Source of the DNA: a virus
Direction: 5' to 3' (one strand)
Length of the DNA: 24,534 nt
IMG/VR virus record: IMGVR_UViG_3300031957_000006
Coordinates: 1 to 24,534 of that record
The translations under genes were made by a program, and so were the position numbers. Below are positions 4,337 through 6,907 of the stretch, piece by piece. The notes under the pieces were generated by a model that was not told the DNA's origin, did no database searches, and saw nothing but the letters and a program-made list of their open reading frames with translations. Every line of letters begins with the position of its first letter. Position 1 is the first letter of the stretch.

Positions 4337-4352
4337 TGTCCAACATTGGACA
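4337..4352. promoter_or_regulatory. Operator-like palindrome TGTCCAA-CA-TTGGACA (copy 1)
   Basis: This non-coding copy has 7-bp arms around CA and is the most symmetric of five GTCCAA-YR-TTGGAC sites (others at 5013, 5314, 5859 and 6244). A 6-bp-arm dyad with a 2-bp centre is typical of a dimeric repressor site. A second palindrome, CACAGT-TAT-ACTGTG, lies four bases further on. Binding protein unknown. Confidence 0.65.
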
Positions 4353-4370: not shown

Positions 4371-4521
4371 ATATATATGCAACACCAACAGTTTGCCCAA
4401 CCCAAACTAGCCTCACGAGTTTAGCGCACGAACTTCGTAATTACTTGTAATTACTGCAGTAGCATGGGAAACGACGGGCGCAGAGGATCACGAGGCAACT
4501 TTTCTCTGGACAAACTCTATA

Positions 4522-4603
4522 CTATCTTCTAATAGTTTTATAAGAGAATTATATCTCACTTCTTGTGAGAGATATAAGTTCTCTTTTATAAAACAGAAGA
4601 TAG
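4522..4603 (+). promoter_or_regulatory. Very long leader hairpin before the first rightward gene
   Basis: CTATCTTCT (4522-4530) pairs with AGAAGATAG (4595-4603), GTTTTATA (4535-4542) with TATAAAAC (4587-4594), AGAGAA (4543-4548) with TTCTCT (4579-4584), TTATAT (4549-4554) with ATATAA (4572-4577), and CTCAC (4555-4559) with GTGAG (4565-4569). That is about 34 bp of stem with a few bulged bases and a TTCTT loop. The ribosome site AGGAA (4606-4610) begins just outside the stem, leaving it free. Possible roles are mRNA protection, an RNase III site, or DNA cruciform control. A poor promoter candidate, TGGACA (4507-4512) with TCTAAT (4528-4533) and a 15-bp spacer, overlaps its start. Confidence 0.7.
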
Positions 4604-4617
4604 ATAGGAAAACGAAA

Positions 4618-5190
4618 ATGGCAAACTCAACAGCAACAACTGGAACTTCAATCGACGCTTTAGTAAAAGAGGGCAAAGCCCTTGGTTCAATTTGGCGTCA
4701 AGTGAACAGCCTCAAGCAAACCATCAAAGAGAATGGTTTTGATACAAGGTTGGGTAAATTGCTACAGCAATTGAAAGCTAATGCCACCACCGATGCAGGT
4801 CAAATACCAACACATGTCCTTCGGACTCATGGTATTCAGCAAATTGATCGTCGTCGTCGTTCAGAGGCTCTATGGTTCGTTGAAAACGAAAAGGAGTGTC
4901 GTGAGTTCATAAAAGCCTCTGGCTTTAAAGGCTCATCTCTTACAGCTTTACAAGCTGCAATGCGTAAAGCTGCCAAAGGCAGTGATGAAGATCAACCTGC
5001 TAAAGCAGAACCGTCCAATGTTGGACAGTCTGATGAGGCTCCTGCTAAAGCAGAAAAGGCACCAGTGAAGATCACTCACAAAGTGATGGTAAATACCATC
5101 TTAGCTCAAACAGAGCTTAACGGCTTGGATCTTGAAAAGATCATTGAGGATCTGATGGCAGCTATTCCTGCAGCAAAGGCAGCGGCATGA
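4618..5190 (+). CDS. Hypothetical protein, first gene of the rightward operon
   Basis: A 190-residue protein of unrecognised family. The first 125 residues look folded and helical, with a basic patch QQIDRRRRSEALWFVENEKE (about 74-93). Then follows a disordered Ala/Lys/Glu/Pro linker (KGSDEDQPAKAEPSNVGQSD...APAKAEKAPVK) and a C-terminal helical segment (VMVNTILAQTELNGLDLEKI). The ATG at 4618 has AGGAA seven bases upstream, right after the long hairpin. The linker codons contain palindrome copy 2 (5013-5026). As the first early-type gene it could be a DNA-binding regulator or host-takeover protein, but no motif proves it. Confidence 0.75.
   Translation: MANSTATTGTSIDALVKEGKALGSIWRQVNSLKQTIKENGFDTRLGKLLQQLKANATTDAGQIPTHVLRTHGIQQIDRRRRSEALWFVENEKECREFIKASGFKGSSLTALQAAMRKAAKGSDEDQPAKAEPSNVGQSDEAPAKAEKAPVKITHKVMVNTILAQTELNGLDLEKIIEDLMAAIPAAKAAA
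5013..5026. promoter_or_regulatory. Operator-like palindrome GTCCAATGTTGGAC (copy 2, inside a gene)
   Basis: A perfect 6-bp dyad with TG centre, preceded by ACC and followed by A as in the other copies. It is read in frame as Pro-Ser-Asn-Val-Gly-Gln in the gene's disordered linker. Copy 3 is read in a different frame, so conservation is of the DNA, not the protein. Confidence 0.6.
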
Positions 5191-5614: not shown

Positions 5615-5777
5615 AATCATTCTCGCTGTAGCATGGTCTGTAATACTTGTATTACTTACCTATTTGACCATTGCCGTTGTGTCACTCAATGGTCACTTGC
5701 ATATACTCATAGGCATTGCGGTTCCCGTTGCAATGTTGGGCTTTATCACAATTTGTGAACGGCCTCTTGACAAGTAG
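5607..5777 (+). CDS. Small two-helix membrane protein
   Basis: From ATG 5607, which overlaps the end of the preceding gene by eight bases, this gives 56 residues with two hydrophobic segments: IILAVAWSVILVLLTYLTIA and, after a SLNGH turn, ILIGIAVPVAMLGFITI. A short charged tail (CERPLDK) follows. The in-frame ORF extends upstream, but that part is a shadow of the preceding gene. An ATG at 5595 is an alternative. It is probably an inner-membrane protein; an early membrane role such as superinfection exclusion is possible but unproven. The twin hairpin region starts at its stop codon. Confidence 0.6.
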   Translation: MIKIILAVAWSVILVLLTYLTIAVVSLNGHLHILIGIAVPVAMLGFITICERPLDK

Positions 5778-5842
5778 TATTACATAGTTATATAAACACT
5801 TGAAACTTTAGTGAAAGTGTTATATAACATATGTATAATACT
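5776..5842 (+). promoter_or_regulatory. Long AT-rich stem-loop (cassette A)
   Basis: GTTATATAAACACTT (5787-5801) pairs with AAGTGTTATATAAC (5815-5828) with one bulged A; the arms extend outward imperfectly through AGTATTA (from 5776) and TAATACT (to 5842). The 13-base loop is GAAACTTTAGTGA. The loop nearly repeats in cassette B, while the stem differs with compensating changes. A shorter alternative hairpin, ACTTT-AGTG-AAAGT, uses part of the same right arm. A palindrome copy and a gene start follow. Confidence 0.7.
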
Positions 5843-5858
5843 AAAGATAACTGAAACC

Positions 5859-5872
5859 GTCCAATGTTGGAC
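5859..5872. promoter_or_regulatory. Operator-like palindrome GTCCAATGTTGGAC (copy 4, cassette A)
   Basis: A perfect 6-bp dyad with TG centre, flanked by GAAACC and ACTTTAAA, lying 16 bases after the stem-loop and 19 bases before the ATG of the next gene. In RNA it could also fold as a 5-bp GTCCA/TGGAC hairpin just upstream of the ribosome site CGGAG. Confidence 0.65.
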
Positions 5873-5891
5873 ACTTTAAACGGAGTTTATT

Positions 5892-6155
5892 ATGATCTAT
5901 CAAGACCTTTGCCAAACATACTCTGATGTTTACAAAGACTTTCATGGTGTACGCCCACCATCAAGTCACAACATGTCCGTTGTAGAATTGTTAGAGGAAA
6001 TTGATATGTACCAAAAGTACATAGAGGAAGATCTGGCACAGGAACGTGCTGATGAAGATGCAAGCATCAATGCTTGTATGGATCATGGCGCTCCTGACAT
6101 AGACACTGCTATGCGGTGGCTTGAACAGGCTAACATTCATGCTGAATGGGCTTAA
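5892..6155 (+). CDS. Small acidic hypothetical protein
   Basis: An 87-residue protein starting at ATG 5892 behind CGGAG. The N-terminal third is YSDVYKDFHGVRPPS, a pattern I have seen in small phage proteins of unknown function; the rest is helical and acidic (VVELLEEIDMYQKYIEEDLAQ) and ends in a short helix (DTAMRWLEQANIHAEWA). No membrane segment or catalytic motif. It stands alone between two stem-loop/palindrome cassettes, so it may be separately regulated from its neighbours. Confidence 0.7.
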   Translation: MIYQDLCQTYSDVYKDFHGVRPPSSHNMSVVELLEEIDMYQKYIEEDLAQERADEDASINACMDHGAPDIDTAMRWLEQANIHAEWA

Positions 6156-6159
6156 CCTT

Positions 6160-6226
6160 TATGTATAGTATAAGTTATATATACTTGATACTTTAGTGAA
6201 AGTATATATAACGTATACATATACTA
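6160..6226 (+). promoter_or_regulatory. Long AT-rich stem-loop (cassette B)
   Basis: GTTATATATACTT (6174-6186) pairs perfectly with AAGTATATATAAC (6200-6212), a 13-bp stem around the 13-base loop GATACTTTAGTGA. Imperfect pairing continues outside (about 6160-6173 and 6213-6226). Relative to cassette A the inner stem changes C-G to T-A, keeping the pairing. A second possible fold, ATACTTT-AGTG-AAAGTAT (6188-6205), competes for the right arm, so the element could switch between two structures. Confidence 0.7.
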
Positions 6227-6243
6227 ACTACCAAATTGAAACC

Positions 6244-6257
6244 GTCCAATGTTGGAC
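6244..6257. promoter_or_regulatory. Operator-like palindrome GTCCAATGTTGGAC (copy 5, cassette B)
   Basis: Identical to copy 4, with the same flanks (GAAACC before, ACTTTTAAA after). It lies 20 bases before the ATG of the HhH-GPD-like gene and next to its ribosome site AAAAGGA. The order stem-loop, palindrome, ribosome site, gene is the same as in cassette A. Confidence 0.65.
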
Positions 6258-6277: not shown

Positions 6278-6907
6278 ATGTATCAACGTGATGTAAATGA
6301 AATCAAAGCTTTCGTAAAATGGCGTGGCCCTGATGCTTTGGTAAACACTGGCTTGTTTGTGTTGCTTACAATACAAGCTGGCCTATCCACAGTACGTGGC
6401 AGCATGGTCAAAGTAGAACGTGACTTCTACCAAGCTGATTGCCTATGGGGTAAGAAAGCTGATGGCTATGAGTACCTAAACGAGAACAAAGAGTTCTTGT
6501 ATGGCAAGCTGTATCACATAGTAGACAGCAAAGGCTATGACAGTGTGGAAGCGTGTGCTGATGTCATACAACTGTTCATGGCTGTACCTAACCTTGGCAT
6601 GGTCAAAGCTGCCTTCCTAGCTCAATGCCTTGGTTTCAATGTGGCATGTATAGACAGCCACAATATCAAGCGGTTGGGTATATCACCTAACCTTGTGAAG
6701 ACGCCACCCTCTGGCATGAAACCTGCGACAGTACGCAAAAAAGTTGAGCAGTACGTTGAGCTTACTCAAGTAGAGGGCAGTGAATACTGGTGGAATACAT
6801 GGTGCGAATATGTGGCAGGTAATCGTGCCAACCGTGCCTTAGATACTGGTGACGTAGTGTCTAGGTATCATGTAGAATGTGTAACATATGGATTTGAACA
6901 TGGCTAA
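6278..6907 (+). CDS. HhH-GPD-like (DNA glycosylase-fold) protein
   Basis: A 209-residue protein. Residues 101-134, containing AVPNLGMVKAAFLAQCLGF and ACIDSHNIKRLG, match the helix-hairpin-helix plus catalytic-Asp pattern of HhH-GPD base-excision glycosylases (compare LPGVGxKTAxxxxxxxxG...VDTHVxRxxxRLG). Lys110 aligns with the glycosylase lysine and Asp126 with the catalytic Asp; their spacing is 16 instead of 18 in endonuclease III. There is no C-terminal Cys cluster for an iron-sulfur centre. An upstream helix (NEIKAFVKWRGPDALV) fits the N-terminal part of the fold. It could excise modified or host bases. The match is by eye and the reaction is not established. Confidence 0.55.
   Translation: MYQRDVNEIKAFVKWRGPDALVNTGLFVLLTIQAGLSTVRGSMVKVERDFYQADCLWGKKADGYEYLNENKEFLYGKLYHIVDSKGYDSVEACADVIQLFMAVPNLGMVKAAFLAQCLGFNVACIDSHNIKRLGISPNLVKTPPSGMKPATVRKKVEQYVELTQVEGSEYWWNTWCEYVAGNRANRALDTGDVVSRYHVECVTYGFEHG

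Follow-up and report, generated by a model that had tools for sequence, protein, structure and literature searches.

Long intercistronic hairpins upstream of the T7 early genes serve as RNase III sites; these have no conserved apical loop, and a bacterial RNase III site needs no conserved apex. The MS2-type coat-protein operator combines a lower stem, one or more unpaired purines, a 2-bp upper stem and a loop of about 4 nt. In cluster K mycobacteriophages, a conserved 13-bp start-associated sequence (SAS), GGGATAGGAGCCC, adjoins start codons, and the extended form (ESAS) contains imperfect inverted repeats of about 17 bp, whose arms follow a consensus around a variable spacer; SAS/ESAS have no assigned function and are dispersed, in one orientation, beside the starts of numerous unrelated genes (PMC3203893). 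The early promoters of phage N4, present as three copies in the early region, are short hairpins with a 3-base loop that join conserved recognised bases to variable bases kept only for pairing; the transcript starts about 11 nt from the loop, and a virion RNA polymerase of about 3500 residues is required (PMC4496689). The put sites of HK022, two stem-loops of about 70 nt near two promoters, are structured early leader RNAs that work on the host RNA polymerase with no need of a phage protein (PMC9378689).

The hairpin element described here is placed as SAS/ESAS are, but has free arms and a conserved loop, the reverse design; compared with SAS by inspection only, its conserved part is the apex. 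Like the N4 promoters it occurs in three copies in an early region and combines recognised with pairing-only bases, but its stem of more than 20 bp and its apex of 9–14 nt lie outside the N4 pattern, and a virion RNA polymerase of the N4 kind was not found in these phages. It could act on the host RNA polymerase as put does; unlike put it is one long hairpin ahead of individual genes, and by description its apex motif is different. Its copies are long and intercistronic upstream of early genes, as T7 RNase III sites are, but their loop is conserved. The element also shares the anatomy of the MS2 operator, except that the lower stem is much longer, the unpaired GA lies on the 3′ side and the ribosome site is usually outside the hairpin.

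HMO-2011-type phages have been described as dominant among marine viruses and as broadly distributed (PMC9038755). Text searches of PMC9038755 and PMC8528129, both on these phages, turned up no account of promoters or of such a hairpin element, although it may be mentioned elsewhere. The window analysed here, a virus contig of 24.5 kb, represents part of the genome of an HMO-2011-type marine podovirus; among annotated phages it is closest to Roseobacter phage CRP-1 (76% DNA identity over 36%) and next to CRP-345, with a weaker match to HMO-2011. Our comparisons show that its hairpins belong to a family of start-proximal elements of marine podoviruses, predicted to act in cis. The varying yet pairing stem and the near-fixed tip, carried by numerous abundant marine phages, point to what may be an undescribed genetic switch or tag recognised in the infected cell.

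Three hairpins ahead of early genes

The early genes of the window run rightward from 4618, and three hairpin copies each lie directly 5′ of a gene.

4535–4594, + strand: copy C, divergent first-gene class, loop ACTTCTTGTGA at 4558–4568, fold z −4.43
4618–5190, + strand: first early gene, 190 aa, downstream of copy C
5775–5843, + strand: copy A, long hairpin, loop GAAACTTTAGTGA at 5802–5814, fold z −4.95
5859–5872, no strand: palindrome GTCCAATGTTGGAC, between copy A and its gene
5892–6155, + strand: gene, 87 aa, downstream of copy A, weak phrog_21968 match with no predicted function
6163–6224, + strand: copy B, long hairpin, loop GATACTTTAGTGA at 6187–6199, fold z −4.32
6244–6257, no strand: palindrome GTCCAATGTTGGAC, between copy B and its gene
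6278–6907, + strand: gene, 209 aa, downstream of copy B, no match in the family search

Copies A and B form hairpins of about 25–28 bp with the core ACTTGAWACTTTAGTGAAAGT and folding energies of −22.4 and −22.9 kcal/mol, respectively; none of 200 shuffles was equally stable. Folded either as RNA or as DNA, each window copy formed one long hairpin (z between about −4.3 and −5.1) that no shuffle equalled in stability, and copies A and B matched a covariance model, built from the same family, with 57.7 and 60.0 bits. A loop-agnostic scan of the window returned three long hairpins with (U)GA-type loops; the same scan found no long hairpin of any kind in the first 50 kb of each of CRP-207, CRP-13 and CRP-603. 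The preliminary description had presented A and B as twins whose 13-base loops differ at one position and whose loop-adjoining stems, ACACTT/AAGTGT and ATACTT/AAGTAT, carry compensating changes. These details are confirmed in the sequence and both hairpins are real and not due to chance; their arms, however, are longer than described, and the pair belongs to a trio with copy C.

Behind the first-gene class of hairpin, the family of the 4618–5190 gene is retained in HMO-type contigs (45 members); it was not found in HMO-type relatives without the hairpin, and may be regarded as a candidate early regulator. The family (locus L005, 1–627, and the window gene) is present in CRP-1, CRP-345 and genome G020.

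A hairpin family with covarying stems

The exact core ACTTKAWACTTTAGTGAAAGT was found in 104 stretches of public viral contigs. With looser criteria, a search for motif plus stem yielded 131 unique hairpins, as defined by their 18-nt arms, with 42 loop types; the sites derive from related contigs, and the counts are not independent. Five control loop patterns of equal complexity returned 1–3 hairpins each, in a scan that, as for the terminators below, took in all collected loci and not only element-carrying phage contigs. Matches to a relaxed core without the canonical core were nearly all coding sequence lacking a stem. The covariance model recovered further divergent copies, including a second HMO-2011 copy at 1205–1242 that has lost one whole base pair, and CRP-345 has a divergent copy at 817–856. 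Scanning 16 phage segments for loops with GA...GA ends on a stem returned only loops of the inner-helix pattern described below. Rfam 15 gave no match at the gathering threshold across the whole window, and a permissive scan of the region gave chance-level matches only; four isolated matches in 85k bacterial genomes, for which stems were left out of the comparison, are taken as chance. Because several contigs are fragments, absence is weak evidence.

While the core stays fixed, the arms are exchanged for unrelated complementary sequence, such as GTTATATAAC/GTTATATAAC, TTAATTAATTATT/AATAATTAATTAA and TGTGATAAATAC/GTTTTATCAC. Arms pair with their own partners at a mean of −6.4 kcal/mol, compared with −2.1 kcal/mol after swapping. 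Across 33 aligned copies of the canonical class, double-sided changes fill 83 cells of the 14-pair stem (42.5 in shuffles), which reaches a covariation score of 0.388 (0.155 in shuffles), and none of the slid registers approaches the true one. When the lower stem and the inner helix were taken together, 94.7% of cells were paired against 66% in shuffles, the score rose to 0.775 against 0.209, and double-sided changes occurred in 10 of 10 pairs. The stem has a mean of about 23 Watson–Crick pairs within 34 nt, and its small internal loops are conserved.

In divergent copies the apex reads, in order, GA, sometimes one further base, a 2-bp inner helix, a tip of 3–5 nt and (U)GA. The 3′ (U)GA is nearly invariant; its GA is fully so in the 12-nt-loop alignment, where this is partly by construction, GA being also a search criterion. 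The 5′ GA can be absent, as in copy C. The inner helix covaries as well: among 34 rows the inner pair is C-G in 15, U-A in 11 and U.G in 4, and the outer pair is A-U in 24 and G-C in 3. In some lineages AC/GU is swapped to GU/AC, as in GAGTTCTTACGA, and in CRP-1 and CRP-345 the helix is C-rich (CCTTTAGGGTGA). Membership of the K-turn class was dropped on inspection, there being no 3-nt bulge on the right strand.

These results bear out the initial idea of a conserved loop on covarying stems before early genes, and are consistent with a recognised RNA or cruciform; a lack of homologues with covarying stems had been named as evidence against it, and the search found the opposite. The shorter ACTTT-AGTG-AAAGT hairpin into which copies A and B were said to refold is present in both, but in only 72 of the 131 family members; as the other 59 lack this alternative hairpin, the two-state regulator proposed from it is unsupported. 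The suggested unit of stem-loop, palindrome and gene likewise describes the order in both gaps correctly, but not a single cassette. GTCCAATGTTGGAC, a GTCC palindrome, recurs three more times in the window (at 4338, 5013 and 5314), in no case as part of a hairpin, and a palindrome follows 67 of the 131 hairpins. Its variants are GTCCAAYRTTGGAC in the window, CRP-1 and CRP-345, and GTCCGACAGCGGAC in HMO-2011. None was found in CRP-207, CRP-13 or CRP-235 (first 50 kb), nor in G013 and G016, the genomes checked from a second phage group described below; CRP-603 (first 50 kb) has one asymmetric match. Its solitary copies, its lack behind half of the hairpins and the negative result for G013 and G016 speak against membership of a hairpin cassette, and the palindrome is best treated as a separate, dispersed, operator-like repeat. 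In hairpin-bearing HMO-type phages the 14-bp dyad GTCCAAYRTTGGAC is dispersed at 5–7 copies per genome with a genome-specific centre, and it looks like the operator of some regulator.

Position relative to genes

A same-strand start codon with a ribosome-binding site lies downstream of 129 of the 131 unique sites, at a median of 36 nt from the stem foot (upper quantile 53). The hairpins are intercistronic within operons, the proteins encoded downstream fall into 43 families, and the same junction is seen with different upstream genes. Right arms lead into an A-rich spacer and the ribosome site. Neither copy A nor copy B was listed as terminator-like (a G+C-rich stem followed by a T run), so an intrinsic terminator was set aside. 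Sequestration of the ribosome site was rejected as a general mechanism: the site is usually outside the hairpin, and its pairing with the left flank is not above controls (mean 0.53 against 0.43 shuffled in the first-gene class, 0.26 against 0.33 for the other hairpins). A sigma-70 promoter, with a −35 TTGAWA in the core and a −10 in the right arm, was discarded for want of a consistent hexamer across arms; strict promoters fall at 14 of 132 sites, compared with 6 when shuffled, in scattered places. TTGAC is frequent at the left-arm foot among the copies listed, much of it inside the 3′ end of the preceding reading frame.

Wobble pairs in the stems

Near the apex, the stems hold 4 G.T and 4 A.C pairs against 1051 Watson–Crick pairs (G.T 0.4%), G.T thus being no commoner than A.C. 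As arms extended to 60 nt proved too noisy for this count, 262 terminator-like stems from all collected contigs, a class that works as RNA, served as the control; these hold 131 G.T and 52 A.C against 2809 Watson–Crick pairs (4.5% G.T). Wobble pairs are about 12 times rarer in the element (Fisher p 2e-13), a deficit that arises partly from its stems being more perfect and more A+T-rich. So few G.T pairs are unusual for an element selected as RNA and argue against a simple RNA reading. The inner helix has G.U in 5 cells and A.C in 0, and these wobble pairs weakly favour RNA. The stem data thus lean towards DNA, or towards DNA-level homogenisation of the arms, and the orientation, place and inner helix lean towards RNA.

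Phage groups and candidate partners

The HMO-2011-type DNA polymerase was present in 29 and the terminase in 24 of 40 element-bearing contigs, some of these records being fragments. A second element-bearing group is A+T-rich, has neither HMO-type gene and carries 3–5 copies per genome on both strands. This group (loci L440–L447; genomes G013, G014, G016 and G065) is a podovirus with a P22-like portal, a CobS-like ATPase, a DUF7192 protein and a pyrimidine-dimer glycosylase gene; a search of GenBank phages with G013 gave no near DNA relative.

A phage-encoded partner was sought by phylogenetic profile and rejected: the two groups have nothing in common but a lysis enzyme and one small late protein. 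phrog_13596 was dismissed, being also found in phages without the element. We note that it is common to HMO-2011 (L267, 7680–8183), the second group (L444, 17423–17803) and at least 33 pelagiphage records. What remains as partner would be a host factor or a small protein diverged beyond recognition.

Interpretation

We tentatively favour a 5′-leader RNA element that is bound at its apex. The element would act in early transcripts, either in the 5′ leader or between cistrons, with a putative factor bound at its apex. Such a factor more probably comes from the host, since no homologous phage protein follows the element through both groups. Its binding would set the fate of the downstream message through processing, stability or RNA polymerase elongation. 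Message fate is preferred to hiding of the ribosome site because of the location and pairing of that site given above. TTGACA at the left-arm foot of some copies counts against a leader RNA, since it would place the start site inside the hairpin. The same promoter-like motif fits the main rival, a DNA hairpin (cruciform) promoter with extruded arms, an apex read by RNA polymerase and a start within or just after the right arm. Stems of Watson–Crick pairs only suit it too, as does the small number of copies, which sit where the early region begins and point the same way as its genes, and N4 promoters likewise combine conserved apex bases with variable pairing-only bases (PMC4496689). We nevertheless consider it doubtful: the stems are several times the N4 length, a conserved −10 at a fixed place is absent, and no polymerase to read it was found. 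The T7-family enzyme (PF00940) was found in 0 of 21 records and, in a search that detected it in two control phages, in 0 of 11 hairpin-bearing records; a very divergent N4-like enzyme would be missed this way. A T7-type promoter was rejected on these grounds; CRP-1, CRP-345 and HMO-2011 have no annotated gene of N4 virion RNA polymerase size, and the giant protein of the second group matches an internal virion protein/lysozyme and not a polymerase. A hairpin promoter that does without a phage polymerase is conceivable if unrelated marine phages share an identity tag, the GA/2-bp/tip/UGA apex on a sequence-free Watson–Crick stem, that a host nucleic-acid-binding protein reads, perhaps in extruded DNA; we regard this as unlikely.

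Two further readings take up the stem and the shuffling of genes. The long stem, its conserved small internal loops and its intercistronic position in operons would suit an RNase III-type cut that punctuates early polycistronic RNA, as in T7. The host enzyme would be needed, as an RNase III search of the hairpin-bearing phage genomes found no gene and detected the host controls; RNase III sites do not require the conserved apex, and the wobble pairs that the enzyme tolerates are missing, which makes this improbable. The 43 downstream families, the same junction beside different upstream genes and the Watson–Crick-only pairing could instead reflect a mobile early-gene cassette (like T4-type PeSL), in which the hairpin would be the repeated flank for ORFan shuffling and hairpin-templated DNA repair would keep the pairing. 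Such repair leaves unexplained both the strict position near start codons and the conservation of the apex across unrelated phage groups while the arms turn over completely, and we hold this reading to be very improbable.

In this covarying element the fixed apex predicts a binding site and the stem predicts freely mutable positions. The cultured phages CRP-1, CRP-345 and HMO-2011 carry it, and its shortage of G.T pairs allows a direct test of whether it works as RNA or as DNA. Finding the partner of the element would reveal how phages that lack an RNA polymerase of their own steer host expression.

A structured block upstream of copy C

Upstream of copy C, at about 4420–4500 of the window, lies a block of about 90 nt with the order CGAACTTC-hairpin-TGCAGT..GGGAAACGAC..GCAGAGGATCACG, which recurs in many HMO-type contigs and is a candidate for a separate structured RNA. 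The sequence of its inner hairpin varies with pairing kept (GTAATTAC, AAATATATATGAAATATATTT and GGAATAACTTGTTATTCC).
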